Shown here in pieces: positions 4,060-41,660 of a stretch of DNA of 64,000 bases. The stretch comes from Crossiella sp. CA-258035 (GTDB lineage: Bacteria; Actinomycetota; Actinomycetes; Mycobacteriales; Pseudonocardiaceae). The position numbers were made by a program, and so were the translations under genes. Location: contig NZ_CP116413.1 in the NCBI RefSeq assembly GCF_030064675.1, positions 3,566,001 through 3,630,000 on the forward strand. Reading direction: 5' to 3'. The notes beneath the pieces are model-generated. The model did no database searches and was not told where the DNA came from. It saw only the letters and a program-made list of their open reading frames with translations. The stretch's first letter is position 1, and each line of letters opens with the position of its first letter.

Positions 4060-4083
4060 TGTCCTGAGTCGTTAGTTCGCGTG
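4059..4083 (+). repeat. IS630 left terminal inverted repeat
   Basis: Twenty-five bases beginning GTGTCCTGAGTC, matched in inverted orientation at 5160-5184 with three mismatches (positions 12, 17 and 22 of the repeat). It abuts the TA at 4057-4058. Confidence 0.9.
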
Positions 4084-4101
4084 CAGGGGATAGGGTTTCC
4101 T

Positions 4102-5187
4102 ATGCCGAACCCGAAGCTGCCTGAGCTAGTCCTCACCGACGACGAACGAGACATGCTGGAGGGCTGGGCACGGCGCCGGAAGACAGCACAGGCGCTGGCG
4201 CTGCGGTCACGGATCGTGCTGCGGTGCGCCGAAGGCGGCTCCAACAGCGAAATCGCCGCCGAGCTGGGAATCCAGCGCGGCACGGTCGCGAAGTGGCGCT
4301 CACGGTTTCACACCGACCGAGTGGACGGCCTGCTCGACGAGCCACGCCCCGGCCGCCCCCGCACCATCACCGACAAGCAGGTCGAGGCGGTGATCACCAA
4401 GACGCTGGAGTCCACCCCGGCCAGCGCCACGCACTGGTCCACCCGCTCGATGGCCGCTGCCTCCGGCCTGACTCAGACCGCGATCTCCCGGATCTGGAAC
4501 GCCTTCGCACTCCAGCCACACCGGCGTGAAGCCTGGAAGCTGTCCAAGGACCCGCTGTTTGTGGACAAGGTCAAAGACGTGGTCGGTCTCTATCTCGCGC
4601 CACCGGAACGGGCGGCGGTGCTGTGCGTGGACGAGAAATCCCAGATCCAGGCACTCAACCGCACCGCACCGATCCTGCCCTTGTTGCCCGGGACGCCACA
4701 GCGGGCCAGTCACGACTACATCCGGCATGGCACCTCCAGCCTCTACGCGGCGCTGGACATCACCACCGGCAAGGTCATCGGGCGGCTGCACGCACGGCAT
4801 CGCGCGATCGAGTTCAAGAAGTTCCTGACCGTCATCGACAACGAGGTCCCCGCCGAGTTGGGGGTGCATCTGGTGCTGGACAACGTCTCCAGCCACAAGA
4901 CACCGGTCATCAAGCGCTGGCTGGCCGCCCACCCGCGCTTCAGCGTGCATTTCACCCCGACCTCAAGCTCCTGGCTCAACCTCGTCGAACGCTGGTTCTC
5001 CGAGCTGACCACCAAGAAACTCCAGCGCGGCAGTCACACCAGCGTCCGTGCGCTCAACGCCGATATCCGGGCCTGGATCAAGACCTGGAACGACAATCCC
5101 CGGCCCTATGTCTGGACCAAGACCGCCGCCCAGATCCTGGACTCCATCGCCCGCTACTGCACACGAATTAACAACTCAGGACACTAG
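4102..5187 (+). CDS. IS630-family DDE transposase
   Basis: A 361-residue transposase from ATG 4102; a GTG at 4081 is an in-frame alternative. Residues about 30-90 form a helix-turn-helix (SEIAAELGIQRGTVAKWRSRF), with a second helical DNA-binding part (SMAAASGLTQTAISRIWNAF). The RNase H-like catalytic domain follows: first Asp in VLCVDEKSQ (Asp177), second in VHLVLDNVSSHK (Asp260), Glu in SWLNLVERWFSEL (Glu296), giving the D-E spacing of about 35 expected for IS630. The frame is intact. Its stop codon is not inside the element: the TA of the target duplication plus the next host base supply TAG, so the C-terminus would vary with insertion site. Confidence 0.9.
   Translation: MPNPKLPELVLTDDERDMLEGWARRRKTAQALALRSRIVLRCAEGGSNSEIAAELGIQRGTVAKWRSRFHTDRVDGLLDEPRPGRPRTITDKQVEAVITKTLESTPASATHWSTRSMAAASGLTQTAISRIWNAFALQPHRREAWKLSKDPLFVDKVKDVVGLYLAPPERAAVLCVDEKSQIQALNRTAPILPLLPGTPQRASHDYIRHGTSSLYAALDITTGKVIGRLHARHRAIEFKKFLTVIDNEVPAELGVHLVLDNVSSHKTPVIKRWLAAHPRFSVHFTPTSSSWLNLVERWFSELTTKKLQRGSHTSVRALNADIRAWIKTWNDNPRPYVWTKTAAQILDSIARYCTRINNSGH
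5160..5184 (-). repeat. IS630 right terminal inverted repeat
   Basis: The inverted copy of 4059-4083, ending at 5184 and followed by the second TA at 5185-5186. It overlaps the last codons of the transposase gene, whose stop codon TAG (5185-5187) is formed by the duplicated target TA plus a host G. Confidence 0.9.
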
Positions 5188-16630: not shown

Positions 16631-18231
16631 TCCGATTCGACCGGGTGAGCGTGACCTACGCGGGGGCGACCCGTCCCGCACTGTCCGAAGTGGACATCAC
16701 GGTGGCCGAGGGTGAGCTGTGCCTGGTGGTCGGCCGCACCGGGGTGGGCAAGTCCACTTTGCTCAACGCGATCAACGGCCTGGTGCCGCACTTCACCGGC
16801 GGCCTGCTGCGGGGCCGGGTCACCGTGGACGGACTGGACACCCGCACGCACAAGCCCCGCGAGCTGGCCCACCTGGTCGGTGTCGTCGGCCAGGACCCGC
16901 TGGCCGGGTTCGTCACCGACACCGTCGAGGAAGAGCTGGCCTACGGCATGGAGCAGCTGGCCATACCGCCGGAGGTGATGCGCAAGCGCGTCGAGGAGAC
17001 GCTGGACCTGCTGGGCATCGCGGAGCTCCGGAACCGTCCACTCCGGACACTCTCCGGCGGGCAGCAGCAGCGGGTGGCCATCGGCTCGGTGCTCACCGCC
17101 CACCCCCGGGTGCTGGTGCTGGACGAGCCGACCTCCGCGCTGGACCCGACCGCCGCCGAGGACGTGCTGGCCGCGATCACCCGCCTGGTGCACGACCTGG
17201 GCATCACCGTCGTGGTCGCCGAGCACCGCATGGAACGGGTGGTGCAGTACGCCGACAAGCTGGTGCACCTGCCCGGCGGCGGACGGGTGGAGCAGGGTGA
17301 TCCCGCCGACCTGCTCATCACCAGCACCGTGGCCCCGCCCGTGGTGGAGCTGGGCAGGCTCGCCGGGTGGCGCCCGCTGCCGCTGTCGGTGCGCGATGCC
17401 CGCCGTCAGGCCGCCCCGCTGCGGGAGCGCCTGGCAGGACGGCCGCTGCCGGAGCACGGCCGCGGCGCGAGCACTGGCGAGGCACTGCTGTCGGCGCGAC
17501 GGGTGGTGGTGCGCTACGGCGAGATCGTGGCCGTGCGCGAGGTGTCCCTGGACCTGCACGCCGGGGAGGTGTTGGCCCTCATGGGCCGCAACGGTTCCGG
17601 CAAGTCCTCTTTGCTGTGGGCGGTCCAGGGCTCCGGCCCGCGCCAGGGCGGCACGGTGACCGTGGCGGGCGCCGATCCCCGCGATGGCTCCGCCGCACAG
17701 GCCCGTCGCCTGGTCGGCCTGGTGCCGCAGACCCCCGGCGACCTGCTGTACCTGGAGACGGTCGCGCAGGAGTGCGCCGAAGCCGATCGCGAAAGCGGTG
17801 CCGGCCGCGGGGCGTGCCGCGCGCTGCTGGACCGCCTCGCGCCGGGCGTGCGCGACGAGGCACATCCGCGTGACCTGTCCGAGGGGCAGCGACTGGCGCT
17901 GGTGCTGGCCATCCAGCTCGTCGCCGCGCCGAGGGTGGTGCTGCTGGACGAGCCGACGCGCGGCCTGGACTACCAGGCCAAGCGGGAGTTCGGCGAGCTG
18001 CTGCGCGGCCTCACCGCCGTCGGGCACGCCGTGGTGGTCGCCACGCACGACGTGGAGCTGGTCGCGGCCATCGCCGACCGGGTCGCGGTGCTGGCCGAGG
18101 GCGAGCTGGTCGCCACCGGGCCCACCGCGGAGGTGGTGGTGGCCTCCCCGGCCTTCGCCCCGCAGGTGGCAAAAGTGCTCAGCCCAGCGCCGTGGCTGAC
18201 CGTCGCCGAGGTCAAGGAGGCGCTGGCATGA
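16627..18231 (+). CDS. Double-domain ECF ATPase (EcfA-EcfA' fusion)
   Basis: A 534-residue protein with two complete ABC ATPase domains. First: Walker A GRTGVGKST (36-44), signature LSGGQQQR (142-149), Walker B VLVLDEPTSALDP (Asp166, Glu167). Second: Walker A GRNGSGKSS (320-328), signature LSEGQRLAL (from 417), Walker B VVLLDEPTRGLD (Asp441). The fused pair replaces the separate EcfA1/EcfA2 heterodimer and would drive the adjacent EcfT. The start GTG 16627 overlaps the EcfT stop and the end overlaps the S-component start by four bases. Such fused ATPases are usual in actinobacterial vitamin ECF operons. Confidence 0.92.
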   Translation: MIRFDRVSVTYAGATRPALSEVDITVAEGELCLVVGRTGVGKSTLLNAINGLVPHFTGGLLRGRVTVDGLDTRTHKPRELAHLVGVVGQDPLAGFVTDTVEEELAYGMEQLAIPPEVMRKRVEETLDLLGIAELRNRPLRTLSGGQQQRVAIGSVLTAHPRVLVLDEPTSALDPTAAEDVLAAITRLVHDLGITVVVAEHRMERVVQYADKLVHLPGGGRVEQGDPADLLITSTVAPPVVELGRLAGWRPLPLSVRDARRQAAPLRERLAGRPLPEHGRGASTGEALLSARRVVVRYGEIVAVREVSLDLHAGEVLALMGRNGSGKSSLLWAVQGSGPRQGGTVTVAGADPRDGSAAQARRLVGLVPQTPGDLLYLETVAQECAEADRESGAGRGACRALLDRLAPGVRDEAHPRDLSEGQRLALVLAIQLVAAPRVVLLDEPTRGLDYQAKREFGELLRGLTAVGHAVVVATHDVELVAAIADRVAVLAEGELVATGPTAEVVVASPAFAPQVAKVLSPAPWLTVAEVKEALA

Positions 18232-34397: not shown

Positions 34398-34402
34398 GCT
34401 GA

Positions 34403-36253
34403 TCAGGTCGGCGGCGGCACCAGTTGCCCCGCGAAGCGCCGGTACAGCGGGCTTGAGGCCACCAGCTCGTCGTGCTTGCCCGTGTCCACCACCCTCCCGT
34501 CTTCCAGCACGACGATCAGGTCCGCGTCGCGCACCGTGGAGATCCGGTGTGCGATCACCAGCACGGTGCAGTGCCGCGCCACCTGGCGCACGGTCGCGGC
34601 CAGTGCCTCCTCGTTGGCCGCGTCCAGCTGTGCGGTCGGCTCGTCCATCAGCAGCAGCGACGGGCGGCACAGCAGGGCACGGGCGATCGCCACCCGCTGG
34701 CGCTGGCCGCCGGAGAGCAGCACGCCCCGGTCGCCGACCTCGCTGTCCAGGCCGTCGGGTAGCTGGTCGACCAGGGTGGTCAGGTTGGTCATCCGCAGTA
34801 CTTCGGCGATCTCCTCCTCGGTGGCCTCCGGTGCGGCGTAGGTGAGGTTGGAGCGCAGCGAGCCCCACAGGATCGGGGCTTCCTGTTGCACGTAGCCGAT
34901 CTGGCCGCGGAGCTCGCCCAGGTCCATCGCGCTGATGTCACGTCCGCCCAGCAGGATCGTGCCTGATTCCGGGGTGTAGAAGCGTTCGACCAAGGCGAAG
35001 ATGGTGGACTTGCCCGCACCGGACGGCCCGACCAGCGCGGCCCGCGAGTACGGCGGCACGGTGAAGGACACCTCGTGCAGCACCGGGCGGTCCTCGGTGT
35101 AGCCGAAGGAGACCGCGTCCAGCCGCAGCTCGGCCGCGGCCGAGGTCTCCGCCGAGGGGCGCCTGTCCGGTTGCTCGTCCGCGGGCTCGGTCTCCAGCGC
35201 AAGGGTGTCCTGGATCCGTTGCAGCGCACCGAGTCCGCGCTGCACGGTGGTGGCCGCCTGCAGGATCATGATCAGCGGCATCACCAGCATCATCAGGTAC
35301 AGCAGGAACGCGACCAGCTCGCCGAGCTCCATGGTGCCGTTGGCCACCCTCGCCCCGCCGACGCCCAGTACGAACAGGAAGGAACCGTTGGCCGCCAACG
35401 ACATCGTCGGCCCCACCACCGAGTCCAGCTTGGCCGCGCGCACCCCGGCCCGGTAGGCCTCGTCGGCCCGCGCGCTGATCCGGTCCACCTCGCGCTGCTG
35501 GGCGCGGCTGGCCAGCACGGTCCGGAAGGCGCCGAGCACCCGGTCCAGGTCCGCCGTCATCGCCCCCACCCGGTCCTGGGCGTGCTCGGAAGCCCGCCGG
35601 ATGCCCATCAGCGCCAGGCTGACCAGCAGCAGCGCCACCGTCACGGTCGCCAGCACCAGCAGGAACATCCGCCAGTCCAGCCACAGCATCAGCGCGACCG
35701 AGCCGACCAGGCCGACCACGCCGGTGACCGCCTCCACCACGCCGGAGGACACCACTTCGCGCAGCAGCGTGGTGTCGGTGCCGGTCCTGGACAACAGGTC
35801 CCCTGAGCGCAGCCGGTCGTGCTCGCGGACCGGCAGGTGCAGCAGTTGCCGGATCAGCCGCTGGCGCACCCCGAACACCATGGCCTCGCCGGTGCGCTGC
35901 AACAGGAAGCTCTGCACACCGCTGATCGCGGCCTCGGCCAGGAACAGCGCGACCAGGGCGACCACCAGCCAGGTGATGTCGCCGCCGATCCCGTTGACGA
36001 CCCGCATCACCAGCAGCGGCTGCACCAGCGACAGGCCGGCCGCGGCCAGTCCCAGGGCCAGCGCCACCAGCAGCGGTCCGCGTTGCGCGCGCAGGTAGCG
36101 CAGCAGGTCCCTCGGCCGTGCCCTCGGGCCGTCCTCGAGGCCGCCCAGCCCCGGCGGAGCGGCGGACCAGTCGATCTCGGAACTGTCTGGGTTCCCGTTC
36201 CCCTTCGCCCGGGTGCCGGTCATGCTCACCTCGCGATCGGCCGTGCTCGTCAT
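34403..36253 (-). CDS. ABC exporter with fused membrane and ATPase domains (RiPP export)
   Basis: A 616-residue half-transporter with an N-terminal six-helix exporter domain (residues about 60-350, including LLVALALGLAAAGLSLVQPL and ITWLVVALVALFLAEAAIS) and a C-terminal ATPase. The ATPase has Walker A GPSGAGKST, Q-loop YVQQEAP, signature LLSGGQRQR, Walker B LLLMDEPTAQLD and the H-loop VIAHRIST. There is no N-terminal C39 peptidase domain, so leader removal would be done by another protein. It is the last gene of the RiPP operon, two bases after the CPBP protease stop. Start at ATG 36253; ATG 36223 is an alternative. It most likely exports the modified peptide and may also give self-protection. 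Confidence 0.9.
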   Translation of the reverse strand: MTSTADREVSMTGTRAKGNGNPDSSEIDWSAAPPGLGGLEDGPRARPRDLLRYLRAQRGPLLVALALGLAAAGLSLVQPLLVMRVVNGIGGDITWLVVALVALFLAEAAISGVQSFLLQRTGEAMVFGVRQRLIRQLLHLPVREHDRLRSGDLLSRTGTDTTLLREVVSSGVVEAVTGVVGLVGSVALMLWLDWRMFLLVLATVTVALLLVSLALMGIRRASEHAQDRVGAMTADLDRVLGAFRTVLASRAQQREVDRISARADEAYRAGVRAAKLDSVVGPTMSLAANGSFLFVLGVGGARVANGTMELGELVAFLLYLMMLVMPLIMILQAATTVQRGLGALQRIQDTLALETEPADEQPDRRPSAETSAAAELRLDAVSFGYTEDRPVLHEVSFTVPPYSRAALVGPSGAGKSTIFALVERFYTPESGTILLGGRDISAMDLGELRGQIGYVQQEAPILWGSLRSNLTYAAPEATEEEIAEVLRMTNLTTLVDQLPDGLDSEVGDRGVLLSGGQRQRVAIARALLCRPSLLLMDEPTAQLDAANEEALAATVRQVARHCTVLVIAHRISTVRDADLIVVLEDGRVVDTGKHDELVASSPLYRRFAGQLVPPPT

Positions 36254-36255
36254 GG

Positions 36256-37773
36256 TCAGGTCACCGCCACACCGTGGCGCGCTGCCGGTGCCGGGCGGTC
36301 CCGGACCAGCAGTGGCGTGACCAGCGAGACCGCGTTGAACACCGCGTGGGCCACCAGCGCGGCGAGCAGCCCCAGCTCCACCACCACTACACCCAGCACC
36401 GCGCCGACCAGCACAAGTTCACCCATCCGGACCCAGCGCGGGGTGAACGCCGATCCGCTGTGCATGGCCGCCCACAACACGGCCGTGGCCACGGCCGCCA
36501 CCCACGGGCTGCCGGTCAGCCACACCAGCACCGCCACGCCCAGCAGCCGGAAGACGACCTCCTCGCTGATCGCGCTCTGCACCGTGACCCCCAGGACCCC
36601 GCCGACGCCGACCCCGGCGTGCCGCAGCGAGCCCCGGTCCGGCGCCGCGGAGATCGTGGCGATGCCCGCGTTGCGCAGCAGCGCGTAGCCCGTAGCCCCG
36701 AGGCCCAGCCAAACCAGGCCGATCCAGCCACCCCACACCAACTGCCGGACCGGTTCCTCCAGCAGCGGCAGGCCGATCCGGTCCGCGACCACCAGCCCGG
36801 CCAGCGCCGCGACCACCACCACCGCGGTGGACACGATCCCGGTGACCGCCGACATCAGCACGTTCACCGTGCGGAAAGCCGACCAGGACAGCCGCCCGTC
36901 GTAGGCGTTGACCGCCGAGTTCTCCAGCGCCGCCCGCTCGTTGACCAGCACCGCCAGCAGCACCGGCCCGGCCAGCGCGAGCACCAGGTACGGGTCCGCG
37001 CGCCCGCCCGCGAAGGCCAGGATGGCGACCCCGGTGACCAGGGCGAGCACCGCGCCGAGCAGACCGCCCACACTGGCCAGGGCCTCCCGCTGCTCGGCCC
37101 GCTCGACCTCGCGCACGTCCTGCCCGACCACCTCGATCACCGAGTCCACCCGCAGCACCGCCCCGCCCACGGTCTCCGCGCTCAGGTCGATCCGCACGTC
37201 CGGACCAGTCGCCCGGAACCGGTGCAGGCTCTCCACATCCCCGTCGGCGCGTTCGAAATCGCCGTGGCCGCTCGGCGTGGTCGTGCGCCACCGCCTGCCG
37301 CCCGCGCCGTCGAGTCGTGCGCGCAGTTCCGGCGAACTCAGCGCGGCCTCCCGTGCGGCGGTCTCGATGACGGTCTGCCGCACCGGGCCGTCGATGTCGA
37401 ACAGCAACACCGCGCCATCGGCGGAGATGCCGACCAAGATGCTGCCCCTGGCACCGGCATCGTTGCCGAGGAAACGGATCCGCCAGGAACCGCGCAGGCC
37501 CCAGTCCTGCAGGAAGCCATGCTGGCGGTCCACCGCGCCGAGCTGGTGCAGCTTGTCCACGGTCTCCCCGTCGAACCACAGCGTGGCGAACGCGCGCCAG
37601 CCCTCGACGTCCACACCACACAGCCGCTGCACCGCGTTCCTGGCCTGCCGCAAGGCTTCCGGCCTGCCCGGCAGTCCGGTTGGCGCCACCGCGGGGTAGG
37701 CGATCCGCCGGTACCGCAGGAACAACCACACCAGCAGCGGGGCACTCAGGCCGAGCGCGATCGCCTCAACCAC
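36256..37773 (-). CDS. CPBP-family intramembrane metalloprotease
   Basis: A 505-residue membrane protein from GTG 37773, overlapping the radical SAM stop by 8 bases. The C-terminal half has the CPBP/Abi motifs: SAISEEVVFR (EExxxR), then VLWAAMHSG (motif 2 His), then AHAVFNAVS (HxxxN), each within hydrophobic helices. The N-terminal ~220 residues form an unusual soluble domain after one signal-anchor helix (RGSILVGISADGAVLLFDID). CPBP proteases occur in many bacteriocin and RiPP loci, where leader cleavage or immunity has been proposed. Placed between the modifying enzyme and the exporter, it is the best candidate for removing the leader of the precursor at 39201. Confidence 0.85.
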   Translation of the reverse strand: MVEAIALGLSAPLLVWLFLRYRRIAYPAVAPTGLPGRPEALRQARNAVQRLCGVDVEGWRAFATLWFDGETVDKLHQLGAVDRQHGFLQDWGLRGSWRIRFLGNDAGARGSILVGISADGAVLLFDIDGPVRQTVIETAAREAALSSPELRARLDGAGGRRWRTTTPSGHGDFERADGDVESLHRFRATGPDVRIDLSAETVGGAVLRVDSVIEVVGQDVREVERAEQREALASVGGLLGAVLALVTGVAILAFAGGRADPYLVLALAGPVLLAVLVNERAALENSAVNAYDGRLSWSAFRTVNVLMSAVTGIVSTAVVVVAALAGLVVADRIGLPLLEEPVRQLVWGGWIGLVWLGLGATGYALLRNAGIATISAAPDRGSLRHAGVGVGGVLGVTVQSAISEEVVFRLLGVAVLVWLTGSPWVAAVATAVLWAAMHSGSAFTPRWVRMGELVLVGAVLGVVVVELGLLAALVAHAVFNAVSLVTPLLVRDRPAPAARHGVAVT

Positions 37774-39115
37774 GGCAGCACCCCGCTCCGGCGCACGGCG
37801 AGGCCACGGCGGCGGCTGAGGTGAGGGGACCGGGGCGCAGACCGAAGGGCAGGTCGGCCGTCTCGTCCAGCCGGATGTTGCGCACGCACGCGCACCCCAC
37901 CGCCTCCTCGCGGATCGCGGCCAGCCGCAGGGGGTCGCCGATCTGGGTCAGGGACTCCGCGCGGATGTCGCCGAAGGACTTCTCCTCCACCTGGCACGGC
38001 GTGACCAGCCCGTCGGCCCGGATGTGCCAGCTCAAGTAGCCAGGGGTCAGGAACTCCACGGCCAGGCCGGTGGCGGCGAACTCCTGGTCCGGGTCGGCGC
38101 AGCGGTCCCACCCGGTCACCTCGATGTCCCAGTCCTGGTGGCCCGCTTCGACGAACTGCTCGGTCACCGACTCCACCTGCGACTCGCTCAACCCGAACTC
38201 GACGGCGTCCCCCCGGCCGACCGGGACCGTGCTCCCGGCCCGGAACAGCCGCGCGCCCGCCCCTGCGACCTGCTCGATCACCGCGCCGACATCGGCGAAG
38301 TTGGCCGGGGTGACCGTCATGGCGACGAACACGGTGACCCCGGCCCCGGACAGCCGCCGGATGGTCTCCAGCGCGCGGTGGTACGAACCGGCCTTGCCGC
38401 GCAACAGGTCGTGGTGCTCAGCGCGACCGTCCACGCTGACCTGGACCCGCACGTTGCCCAGCGCGGCGGCGAAGTCCACCGCGGCCTCGGACCAGGCCAG
38501 GCCGTTGGTGAAGATGTCCACGTTGTCGATCAGGGCGCTCGCGGTGGCCAGGATCCGCGGGAACTCGGGCACGATGGTCGGCTCGCCGCCGGTCAGGGTG
38601 ACCGCCGCGACGCCGGCGGTGGCCAGCCGCTCCAGCACCCTGGTCCAGTCCTGCGCCGAACACTCCACGGCAAAAGGCTCACCCGAACTGGCGTAGCAGA
38701 ATGCGCAGCGCAGGTTGCACCCATTGGTCAGCTGCAGCGAGGCATTCAGTGGCAGGTAGGCCTCGGTCGACCCGGTCACCCGGATTCCACCGGCCAGCGC
38801 GCCATCCTGCCAGCTCTGGGTGATGGGATGGCTGCCCAAAAGGGCATCCAGATGACGACGGGTGTCGGCCACCGGTTCCCGGTCCAGCCGGCTGCGCAAC
38901 CGCGCCAGCTCGTCCACCGTGCCGGTGCGGGCCAATTGGAGCGCGAGTTCCAGGGCCAGTCCGCTCATTCGCACGTAGTAGAGACTGGTGCGGTCGACGA
39001 AGATGCCGCCACTTGGTTGCAGGTGAATTCCCCAGTTGTCCGGCGGCTCGGTGCTCCGTTCGCTGTGCTCCCGGTCCGGGTCGGGTGACCGGGTTCCGGC
39101 CACGGTGGCTGTCAT
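37766..39115 (-). CDS. Radical SAM/SPASM peptide-modifying enzyme
   Basis: A 449-residue enzyme from ATG 39115 (GTG 39124 is possible and closer to an AGGAGG). The radical SAM cluster motif CNLRCAFC is at 133-140, followed by LTGGEPTIVPEFPRIL (SAM-binding GGEP) and the beta-barrel strands (VDIFTNGLAW, VRVQVSVDGRAEHHD). The C-terminal part has SPASM-type cysteines: LVTPCQVEEKSFGDI, GCACVRN and a terminal CAGAGCC that would ligate auxiliary iron-sulfur clusters. The N-terminal ~100 residues may hold a precursor-recognition region. It lies 85 bases after the precursor gene, beyond a strong hairpin. It probably installs a thioether or carbon-carbon crosslink on the precursor core. Confidence 0.9.
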   Translation of the reverse strand: MTATVAGTRSPDPDREHSERSTEPPDNWGIHLQPSGGIFVDRTSLYYVRMSGLALELALQLARTGTVDELARLRSRLDREPVADTRRHLDALLGSHPITQSWQDGALAGGIRVTGSTEAYLPLNASLQLTNGCNLRCAFCYASSGEPFAVECSAQDWTRVLERLATAGVAAVTLTGGEPTIVPEFPRILATASALIDNVDIFTNGLAWSEAAVDFAAALGNVRVQVSVDGRAEHHDLLRGKAGSYHRALETIRRLSGAGVTVFVAMTVTPANFADVGAVIEQVAGAGARLFRAGSTVPVGRGDAVEFGLSESQVESVTEQFVEAGHQDWDIEVTGWDRCADPDQEFAATGLAVEFLTPGYLSWHIRADGLVTPCQVEEKSFGDIRAESLTQIGDPLRLAAIREEAVGCACVRNIRLDETADLPFGLRPGPLTSAAAVASPCAGAGCCRG

Positions 39116-39146
39116 GGGTACCACGCCCCGTTTCTTTCCTCCTGGG

Positions 39147-39180
39147 CCGTCTGCTGGGTGGCAGGCCACCCAGCAGACGG
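39147..39180 (-). terminator. Attenuator hairpin between RiPP precursor and radical SAM gene
   Basis: A perfect 15-base stem (CCGTCTGCTGGGTGG and its complement) with a CAGG/CCTG loop, 21 bases after the precursor stop and about 30 bases before the enzyme start. It would end most transcripts after the precursor, keeping precursor mRNA in excess over enzyme mRNA. Confidence 0.8.
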
Positions 39181-39200
39181 ACTGTTGACGGCTATCCGCC

Positions 39201-39353
39201 TCAGGCGGCGATCAGCACCGGGTTCGGCTTGCCGCAGGCGCGCACGAACGGCCGGTAGTGCCGGCGCCAGCAGAAGATGCAGCCAATCGCCTTCACCATT
39301 GGCATGCTCGACGGCTGAGTCGCTGCCTGGGTCAACGTGCTGCTCCGACTCAC
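39201..39353 (-). CDS. RiPP precursor peptide, 50 residues, CxxC and third Cys in core
   Basis: The gene starts at GTG 39353, 8 bases after a GGAGG ribosome binding site, and ends at TGA 39201. The first ~20 residues (MSRSSTLTQAATQPSSMPMV) are Ser/Thr/Gln rich and leader-like. The rest is short, basic and aromatic with three cysteines: Cys25 and Cys28 in GCIFCW, Cys40 in VRACGKPNP, and aromatic residues Trp29, Tyr33 and Phe36 each followed within two residues by Arg (WRR, YRP, FVR). It precedes a radical SAM/SPASM enzyme, a CPBP protease and an ABC exporter on the same strand, the classic RiPP arrangement. Thioether links on Cys or aromatic cyclophanes are both possible. I recognise no known precursor family. 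Confidence 0.8.
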   Translation of the reverse strand: MSRSSTLTQAATQPSSMPMVKAIGCIFCWRRHYRPFVRACGKPNPVLIAA

Positions 39354-39382
39354 GTCATTCACCTCCCTCGTGTTTCGTTGTT

Positions 39383-39402
39383 GTCAGGTCAATTGACCGG
39401 AC
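39383..39402. promoter_or_regulatory. Palindromic operator-like site upstream of the RiPP precursor
   Basis: A 20-base dyad with a perfect 12-base centre, GGTCAATTGACC (39387-39398), and outer GTC/GAC arms, one mismatched pair in all. It lies 30 bases upstream of the precursor start in the region shared with the divergent SARP-like gene. Confidence 0.5.
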
Positions 39403-39550
39403 TCTGTCGTCCTGAAGATCGAATGGCCGGCTGGTCTCCAGACGGACTGAATCTACGGAAACCGGCCAAAGGCGGGACAAAGTCCGGCTAATGTCAGTGG
39501 CGCCGACATCCGGCAAGCAGAACGGAGTGCGTGAATTTCTGGGGGAAGCC

Positions 39551-40336
39551 ATGCCCGAAATGTCGAACCATCAACAACTGGAGTTCCGCGTACTCGGCTC
39601 GGTGGAGGTGCTCAGGCAAGGGCGCCCCCGCACGCCGAGCGCGCCCAAGCAGCGCGCCGTCCTGGCGCTGCTGATACTGCACGCCAACGAGTTCGTCCCG
39701 ATGAACCGCCTGGTGGACGACCTGTGGGGGCCGCGTTCACCGGCGCGGGCGGTGGCCGGCTTGCAGGTCTACATCGGCGCGCTGCGCAAGGTGCTGCCAC
39801 TGGCGGGCGCGACCGGCGGCGCACCGGCCATCGAGACCTGCCCGAACGGCTACCTGCTGCGGGTCCCGCCGGAGCAGATCGACCTGTACCGCTACCGGCG
39901 CCTGGCTGCCGAGGGCGACCGCGCGCTGACCGAGGGGCGGCCGGAGCGGGCCTCGGCGCTGCTGGACGCCGCACTCGCGCTGTGGCGCGGCCCGGCGCTG
40001 GCCGACCTCACCACCATCGGACAGCTCGGCGGATACGCGGAATCCCTGGACGCGCACCGCCTCTCCGTCATCGAGCGCCGGATCGAGGCGGACCTGCGCC
40101 TGGGGCGCTACGCCGCAGTCGCGGACGAACTGGAAGGGCTGTGCCAACGGCACCCCCTGCGCGAGTCGCTGCACCGGCAGCTGATGGTCGCGCACTGGCG
40201 GTGCGGGCGCAGGGCCGAGGCCCTGGCCACCTACCAGAGGGTGCGCCACACCCTGGTCGACCGGCTCGGTCTGGAGCCCTGCGAACAGCTCAGAGCGGTC
40301 CAGCAGGCGGTGCTGCGGGACACGGAACCGACCTGA
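39551..40336 (+). CDS. SARP-like regulator (winged helix plus BTAD)
   Basis: A 261-residue protein starting at ATG 39551 with GGGGGAAG directly upstream. Residues about 10-100 are the OmpR-type winged helix of SARP proteins (LEFRVLGSVEVLRQGRP, SAPKQRAVLALLILHANEFV, LVDDLWGPRSPARAVAGLQV, YIGALRKVLP). Residues about 110-255 are the bacterial transcriptional activation domain (LYRYRRLAAEGDRAL, ALWRGPALADL, ADLRLGRYAAVADELEGLC, YQRVRHTLVDRLGLEPCEQL). Length equals the small SARPs such as RedD/ActII-ORF4 types. It is divergent from the RiPP operon, so it is the likely pathway activator. Confidence 0.9.
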   Translation: MPEMSNHQQLEFRVLGSVEVLRQGRPRTPSAPKQRAVLALLILHANEFVPMNRLVDDLWGPRSPARAVAGLQVYIGALRKVLPLAGATGGAPAIETCPNGYLLRVPPEQIDLYRYRRLAAEGDRALTEGRPERASALLDAALALWRGPALADLTTIGQLGGYAESLDAHRLSVIERRIEADLRLGRYAAVADELEGLCQRHPLRESLHRQLMVAHWRCGRRAEALATYQRVRHTLVDRLGLEPCEQLRAVQQAVLRDTEPT

Positions 40337-40364
40337 ACCCCGCACCAGGTGGTATTCCTGCACG

Positions 40365-41660
40365 GTGACCGCCACCGTTCTCACCGCCCTGTGCCGCGAT
40401 CCCGGACTGACCGAGGCCCAGTTGCACGGCGTCATCACCACGGTCGCGGCCCTGGAACCGCATCTGCTGACCGAGCTGGCCACGCGGCCGGATCTGCGGC
40501 CACCCCACCGCCTCGCGGCCGTCCGCCACGCGCCCGCCTATCTGGTCAGGCAACTGCTGGACCGGTGGCCGCCCGATGTCACGCTGGTCCACGCCACCGC
40601 GACAGCACACGGGGCATCGGCCGACCTGATCCTCTACTGCGCCACCCACGACCTGCCGGACCTCGCCGTGTCGCTGGCCAGGCAGTTGGACGCCGACGAG
40701 GTCAGCTACGTGGCGGCGCGCTGGCGCAACCTGTTCGTCGACCTGCCAGAGCAGATCACGATCGCCCTGGTGGACGCGGTGCTGACCGAGACCGAGCAGG
40801 TCACGCTCACCGGGATGTCCGACTGGCAGCAGCGCGAGGCGCTGCGGCGACTCCAGCTGGAACGGGACAAGCGCGCCAGCGTGGCGTGGCAGCTGCTCGA
40901 ACCGGTGCCGCAGCTGTGGGAGCGACTGGCCGGCACGGGCGAGAACGCCATGCTGATCCGCCGCATCCTGTTGGACCGGCCGGAAGAGCTCACCGACGAG
41001 GTGCTGTTGGCCTGCCTGCCCGAGGTGACCTACGAGCAACTGGGCCACGACGAGTTCATCGCTGGTATCCGCCTGCACCAGGCAGCCGCGATGACCCGGC
41101 GCTGGCCCCGGCTGCGGGAGATCGCTGCCGACGAGCTGGCCCGGGTGGTCAGTGAAGCCATCGCCGACGGCTGGACCCCGGCCGGCCGGTACATCGGGCC
41201 GTCCTGGCCGGAGCTGGTCGCGTTGGCGGAGTTGACCAGCGAAGTGGCGCTGCTCGCCGATGCGGTGGCTGCGATCCGCGATGCCCGGCCGCCAGAGCGG
41301 TCGAGCCGTGACCGGGAGGCGGTCATGGAGTGGTCCCGTCGGCGAGCCGAGGCGGTGGCCGCGCTGACCGCCAACCCGGCCACGCCCCGAAACGAGCTGC
41401 GCACGCTGGTTCCCGCGCTGGATGAGCCTCGCCTGCTCGCTGGACGCGGTGGTACTACGCCACTGTCCGGCCGGAGGAGGTTCGGCTCGATCTGGTGCTG
41501 CTTGCCTGCGCCGCCGCCGCGATCGTCGTTCACGCCGTGCAACTGCTCACGGCCCGGCAGCCAGCCGGGGCTCAGGCCCGCCCGGTCGTGCGACTGCTCA
41601 CCTGGGTTGCCTGCCTCGCGCTCGCCGCTGCGGCACGCTTCCTGGCCTCTGGCTGGGTGA
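40365..41660 (+). CDS. Helical repeat (leucine-rich-variant-like) protein, probable frameshift near its end
   Basis: Begins at GTG 40365. Residues 1-350 are helical repeats with Leu/Ala/Val-rich units and segments typical of leucine-rich-repeat variants (ATRPDLRPPHRLAAVRHAPA, ALTANPATPRNELRTLVPAL). After about base 41425 the frame loses coding character (RGGTTPLSGRRRFGSIWCCL...). One base away, another frame continues naturally as RWTRWYYATVRPEEVRLDLV into the hydrophobic start of the next gene. The two may therefore be one ~550-residue protein split by a one-base indel, or a real gene pair whose first member ends irregularly. Function unknown. Confidence 0.55.
   Translation: MTATVLTALCRDPGLTEAQLHGVITTVAALEPHLLTELATRPDLRPPHRLAAVRHAPAYLVRQLLDRWPPDVTLVHATATAHGASADLILYCATHDLPDLAVSLARQLDADEVSYVAARWRNLFVDLPEQITIALVDAVLTETEQVTLTGMSDWQQREALRRLQLERDKRASVAWQLLEPVPQLWERLAGTGENAMLIRRILLDRPEELTDEVLLACLPEVTYEQLGHDEFIAGIRLHQAAAMTRRWPRLREIAADELARVVSEAIADGWTPAGRYIGPSWPELVALAELTSEVALLADAVAAIRDARPPERSSRDREAVMEWSRRRAEAVAALTANPATPRNELRTLVPALDEPRLLAGRGGTTPLSGRRRFGSIWCCLPAPPPRSSFTPCNCSRPGSQPGLRPARSCDCSPGLPASRSPLRHASWPLAG

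Follow-up and report, generated by a model that had tools for sequence, protein, structure and literature searches.

The closest described relative of the locus analysed here is the sporulation killing factor (SKF) of Bacillus subtilis, a peptide of 26 residues closed head-to-tail, with a thioether from Cys4 to the alpha-carbon of Met12 and a Cys1-Cys16 disulfide (PMC8172795; here and below, cited papers are represented by excerpts). Seven sactipeptides are listed in that 2021 review, from Bacillus, Ruminococcus and Streptococcus, all of which are Bacillota (PMC8172795). We analysed a 64,000-nucleotide window, positions 3566001-3630000 of the 9.17-Mb single-contig genome of the actinobacterium Crossiella sp. 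CA-258035 (NZ_CP116413.1). It contains a five-gene cassette for a precursor peptide, a radical SAM enzyme, a CPBP membrane protein, an ATP-binding cassette (ABC) exporter and a divergent SARP regulator. Judged from its protein sequences, the cassette is almost certainly homologous to the SKF system, of which it is an actinobacterial variant, and does not represent a new class of peptide; an SKF-type sactipeptide pathway is very likely the best explanation of the locus as a whole. The original prediction, made from the DNA letters, had proposed a compact pathway for a ribosomally synthesized and post-translationally modified peptide (RiPP). Its five open reading frames (ORFs) were all recovered at the positions it gave, and family matches bear out the pathway. 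Because it is intact, lies outside the phylum of Bacillus and has a predicted Phe acceptor, this SKF-type cassette is a natural test of acceptor choice by SkfB, of the role of SkfC, and of whether export and immunity can both be served by a single fused exporter in place of SkfE/SkfF.

Precursor, SkfB and SkfC homologs

We found 25 loci by scanning GTDB contigs. SkfB is present in 12 of them, one from Crossiella sp. S99.2 and 11 from Bacillota; adding the window and L009, from another genus of the same family (genome G089), makes 14 distinct loci, 3 actinobacterial and 11 from Bacillota. L008 and L010 are one locus and were counted once. The other 13 loci (L022-L034; E 3e-14 to 2e-6) hold more distant radical SAM proteins with no SkfA or SkfC match, on contigs several of which span just 3-9 kb, and were dropped. 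The gene order precursor-SkfB-SkfC is found in all 14 loci, with a split skfC in L016.

The precursor gene (39201-39353, minus strand, stop included) codes for 50 aa, and its GTG start sits 8 nt past a GGAGG. It had been thought to lie outside known families and to have an unusual three-Cys pattern, but neither view held. Its sole match in NCBIfam is SkfA (TIGR04404, E 4.7e-8, 32.9 bits), an alignment with 13 relatives also places it near SkfA, and the three cysteines are the signature of that family: Cys1, Cys4, Trp5 and Cys16 of the core are kept in 14/14 loci. The predicted leader of 24 aa (39282-39353, minus strand) ends in MVKAIG, and the V, K and G of this VKxxG leader end are invariant in all 14 rows. 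A cut between Gly and Cys, predicted from the SKF core, would release a core of 26 aa (CIFCWRRHYRPFVRACGKPNPVLIAA; 39204-39281, minus strand) with Cys1, Cys4, Phe12 and Cys16 in register with the Bacillota cores. Ten loci have cores of 26 residues, three of 27 and one of 28. The residue at position 12 is hydrophobic throughout: Phe in the 3 actinobacterial cores, and Met (6) or Leu (5) in those of Bacillota. Conservation of the precursor, the lack of which would have counted against the original prediction, was found in two further genomes of the host family (84% and 94% protein identity).

Two variants within the family are worth recording. The Amphibacillus loci L012, L014 and L015 have 27-residue cores with Leu12. 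The Anoxybacillus precursor (L020:7669-7866) has a 28-residue core with five Cys (CAGCWAAKSISLTSACWECEISLVACAI), and a second bridge is therefore possible there.

The radical SAM gene (37766-39169, minus strand) encodes a predicted SkfB-type sactisynthase. The protein matches SkfB in NCBIfam (TIGR04403) with 407.9 bits against a cut-off of 300, the next-best family reaching 86.2 bits, and is 43% identical to B. subtilis SkfB (PDB 6efn). This structure comes first in a phmmer search of the PDB (E 7.8e-101), with an alignment spanning residues 46-443 that should include the peptide-binding N-terminal domain described for SkfB (PMC6231123), and it is also the best structural match (E 2.2e-36) of an AlphaFold2 model of the enzyme (mean predicted local distance difference test score, pLDDT, 70.1). 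Of the two chemistries that had been considered, the Cys thioether is the likely one.

Pfam detects Radical_SAM and SPASM domains, as expected from the original assignment to the radical SAM/SPASM enzymes, but we infer that what Pfam reports as SPASM is the equivalent of the Twitch domain in SkfB, which holds one cluster. The proposed alignment of cluster ligands was carried out: the radical SAM Cys151/155/158 and the Twitch Cys392/426/428 are present in 14/14 enzymes, the latter with the spacing CX33CXC of the SkfB crystal structure (PMC6231123). In that structure a fourth conserved cysteine, Cys333, lies ~12 A from the auxiliary cluster (PMC6231123). The corresponding column holds Leu in the 3 actinobacterial enzymes (Leu374 here), Ser in 3 from Amphibacillus and Cys in 8; this natural absence in 6/14 fits the crystal structure, in which the auxiliary cluster has three Cys ligands and an open site. 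After the Twitch domain comes a Cys-rich C-terminal tail (SPCAGAGCCRG; Cys459, 464 and 465; window 37769-37841), which is found in the 3 actinobacterial SkfB and is absent from the 11 Bacillota rows. The translation start is probably GTG 39124 or ATG 39115 instead of 39169, because a conserved hairpin (39147-39180) falls inside the longer reading.

The adjoining gene (36256-37773, minus strand), whose ORF overlaps that of the radical SAM enzyme by 8 bp, encodes an SkfC-like membrane CPBP protein (Pfam Rce1-like, E 2.4e-9). In a phmmer comparison it matched SkfC of Bacillota, with E between 9.2e-59 and 1.5e-79 for 10 full-length sequences, and the motifs EExxxR, WAxxH and HxxxN are kept in 12/12 rows of an alignment made without L016, where skfC is split, and L009, for which the sequence used covered part of SkfC. 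The B. tequilensis split gene (L016:9184-10674) consists of two ORFs of 215 and 279 aa. A model of the SkfC-like protein (mean pLDDT 82.2) comprises a first helix, an alpha/beta region (about 36-214) and a helical region, the last of which is presumably embedded in the membrane.

Proposed product and alternatives

We propose the following pathway. The SARP would switch on the five-gene cassette, and the leader of the precursor would bind the N-terminal part of the SkfB enzyme, which resembles a RiPP recognition element. A 5'-deoxyadenosyl radical would remove the alpha-hydrogen of Phe12, whose alpha-carbon would then be joined by the sulfur of Cys4, with the three-Cys auxiliary cluster helping to complete the thioether bond. 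Phe12 fits as the acceptor, as SkfB works best with hydrophobic residues at position 12 (PMC8172795) and also accepts Ala there, taking the alpha-hydrogen (PMC8326336). The SkfC-like protein would cut after VKAIG and join Cys1 to Ala26, a ring closure that we infer from the presence of the SkfC-like gene and the core alignment; Cys1 and Cys16 would form a disulfide. The fused ABC exporter would move the product out and probably protect the producer, and the cationic circular product would most likely kill or inhibit related Gram-positive bacteria. By analogy with SKF, these exact bonds (a Cys4-Phe12 alpha-thioether, a Cys1-Cys16 disulfide and a head-to-tail ring) are quite probable, and the calculated mass of such a product is 3050.557 Da.

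Several observations weigh against assignment to the SKF family. The precursor scores 32.9 bits, below the curated equivalog cut-off of 45 bits for TIGR04404, for which reason we call it SkfA-like and not SkfA itself. None of the 3 actinobacterial leaders has the WE motif found in those of Bacillota (WQ in L020). Identity of the SkfC-like protein to the 10 full-length Bacillota SkfC is only 26-31%, and Foldseek with its model returned no solved relative (best E 0.22). SkfC itself is termed a putative protease or maturation gene in the published excerpts (PMC8172795, PMC13343845), and its cyclase role is our proposal. SkfE/SkfF and SkfG/H are missing from the conserved block that makes up the cassette, and an SkfF query against the Crossiella genome, in a search run without a positive control, found nothing.

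It seems improbable that the cassette is silent or decayed and gives no product. Its spread is patchy: SkfB exceeds the cut-off in 3 of 390 genomes of the family, including the Crossiella genome itself, and a same-species draft assembly lacks it. All five frames are, however, free of stops in the window and in its two aligned relatives (L035, from G089, and L036). The Cys, Trp, Tyr and Phe of the precursor are retained amid differences at synonymous sites (10 synonymous and 7 non-synonymous of 53 codons against L009; 1 and 2 against L008), and both the hairpin and blocks in the region upstream of the precursor are conserved.

An equally small chance is given to a ranthipeptide-like product, with a thioether to the beta- or another carbon of Phe or to a residue other than 12. 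The acceptor does differ from that of the 11 Bacillota members, and Phe has a stabilised benzylic beta-radical. Against this, the Phe acceptors of subtilosin A are bound at the alpha-carbon. The alpha-hydrogen is also the one that SkfB is reported to take, as shown with Ala at position 12 (PMC8326336).

A shade less probable again is an SkfB branch with an altered bond, in which Cys4 would be joined to the beta-carbon or the ring of Phe12, a type of bond that the SKF family is not known to have. The Cys-rich tail might then provide an additional metal site or relay thiols.

Least likely by some distance is the three-residue cyclophane suggested for WRR, YRP and FVR, a triceptide-like product in which the enzyme would link ring carbons of Trp5, Tyr9 and Phe12 to Arg/Pro side chains two residues on: each aromatic of the window core is followed by Arg or Pro and all three are kept in the 3 actinobacterial loci, but Trp5 alone is kept across the 14, the Tyr9 position is non-aromatic and the Phe12 position Met or Leu in the 11 Bacillota cores, L009 has Ser in place of Arg6, and it is Cys1, Cys4 and Cys16 that are invariant. 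Cyclophanes are defined by conserved aromatic-x-x motifs under a cyclophane-forming radical SAM enzyme; here, Trp5 is the sole conserved aromatic and the best match of the enzyme is SkfB, over cut-off.

Exporter, regulator and spread of the cassette

The remaining genes of the SKF-type cassette differ from those of Bacillota. A fused MsbA-like ABC exporter (34403-36253, minus strand; Pfam ABC_membrane and ABC_tran), kept in L035 and L036, is separated from the CPBP gene by 2 bp; no peptidase domain was found in it with Pfam. We propose it for export and immunity because SkfEF of B. subtilis is described as an autoimmunity transporter, and SKF was undetected in its absence (PMC13343845).

The divergent SARP regulator (39491-40336, plus strand; BTAD E 6.2e-45, Trans_reg_C) is conserved together with the cassette in L009/L035 and L010/L036. 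Its start may be ATG 39551, as similarity to the other genus starts near 39540, although the longer start is also open in Crossiella S99.2. A candidate SARP box upstream of the precursor (CTTTGTC/CTTTGGC, 11 bp apart) was rejected: it was equalled by 185/2000 mononucleotide shuffles, and the heptamer pair is weak in Crossiella S99.2 (5/7) and not kept in L009. Between the precursor and radical SAM genes lies the 15-bp hairpin (39147-39180, minus strand), which folds much better than shuffled sequences in the window (z -6.24), in L009 (-5.42) and in L010 (-6.44); in L009 the alignment reveals one compensatory pair change and an altered loop. No T run follows the hairpin, so a role as a partial stop or as a stabiliser favouring the precursor is a guess.

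The cassette forms a block of about 5.9 kb conserved across two genera. DNA of G089 (L035) aligns to 34401-40317; three further matches lie far off in the window, one over 820 columns at 69.6% (4378-5187, in a DDE_3-type transposase gene) and two that span at most 131 columns. DNA of G003, a genome of the same genus (L036), aligns to 34403-41440, in addition to a short match at 17050-17190 and to the hairpin in inverted order. These alignment edges place the SARP inside the cassette and leave most of the flanking DNA unshared. Beyond the SARP lies an ORF of 431 aa (40365-41660) for which Pfam gave no match at E up to 0.01, and the first 1.1 kb of which aligns with Crossiella S99.2 beside the cassette and not with G089. 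In the genomes of the genus, matches to flanking DNA from the window are dispersed. The composition of the cassette is not foreign, as its genes (GC 0.65-0.73; GC at third codon positions 0.87-0.94) resemble three flanking ORFs (0.72; 0.84-0.88). None of the five genes has a TTA codon, and no tRNA gene was found in the window.

SkfB is found in 2 of 5 genus genomes and in 1 of 394 genomes of a class sample, and SkfC in 1 of 396 genomes of a phylum sample; the Crossiella genome is one of the first two and the sole carrier in both samples. With the SkfA profile, 16 of the 390 family genomes gave matches at E up to 0.01, and 3 of these are the SkfB carriers (E <=2.4e-21). The next-best match, in G097 (3.8e-5, APLVKTAGCSPCW...), has no SkfB/SkfC match in the 19.9 kb around it and was taken as chance. 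Four 3-kb loci from the other 12 genomes (L058, L060, L062 and L063) gave no SkfB/SkfC by phmmer; the precursor was matched weakly in L060 and L062 (E about 1e-3), and the SARP weakly in L060 (0.0073).

In a midpoint-rooted tree, the 3 actinobacterial enzymes stand apart from the 11 of Bacillota on a long branch (support 100/100). The program warns of long branches and odd composition in the 3 actinobacterial rows, and we therefore read neither a direction nor a date of transfer from the tree. In G089, a DDE_3-type transposase gene (L035:7754-8863) adjoins the end of the SARP (about 8895), and a relative of it occurs in the window at about 4060-5187, ~30 kb from the cassette. The transposase beside the G089 copy hints at movement but shows none. 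A tblastn search of plasmids with SkfB (E up to 1e-30) returned 1 record, a 258-kb plasmid of Anoxybacillus amylolyticus (skfB at NZ_CP015439.1:6730-7914, 43.9% identical), which is a possible route of spread.

Comparison with known systems

A 'sactipeptide' cluster was reported in 2022 in Crossiella Cross-1 and Cross-2, and C. cryophila and C. equi, with which they were compared, did not show it; it has an Rce1-like protein that was tied to SkfC and whose nearest UniProt entry is from Micromonospora ureilytica (49.2%; PMC9415966). Our locus L010 lies in assembly JALMDK, deposited with that study, and its SkfB is 90% identical to the one described here. The published cluster is probably of the same type and is presumably L010 itself. 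It should be noted that the excerpted text names the SkfC-like Rce1 protein and no precursor, SkfB, acceptor or cassette limits (PMC9415966). No published description of the Crossiella precursor or product was found in the literature searched.

Subtilosin A, made by AlbA, is a head-to-tail cyclic sactipeptide with Phe acceptors, both features proposed here too. It has three thioethers and another precursor, and the AlbA model scores only 82 bits on the Crossiella enzyme.

The loci of Paenibacillus, Amphibacillus and Anoxybacillus (L011, L012, L014, L015 and L020) share the A-B-C order and the Cys register, and differ in a Leu12 acceptor, cores of 26, 27 or 28 residues and an SkfE-type ATPase after SkfC. 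In all 11 Bacillota loci, an ATPase of 239-261 aa follows SkfC. Among five of them (L011, L012, L013, L016 and L020), a permease-sized ORF is present in 5/5, a G-like ORF in 4/5 and an H-like ORF in 4/5; Pfam was run on the L013 set, where F has no match, G has HEAT repeats and H is thioredoxin-like.

The Bacillus loci (L013, L016-L019 and L021) also have a 26-residue core with Cys1/Cys4/Trp5/Cys16 and the VKxxG leader end. The Crossiella cassette shares with B. subtilis skfABCEFGH the A-B-C order, an SkfB over cut-off and an SkfC-like CPBP protein adjoining it. It differs in having Phe12 instead of Met12, a leader without WES, a fused MsbA-like exporter where B. subtilis has SkfE/SkfF, a cassette that lacks G/H, and a Cys-rich enzyme tail. 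Whereas the B. subtilis operon is reported to be induced through Spo0A (PMC8172795, PMC9936203), the Crossiella cassette is accompanied by a SARP.

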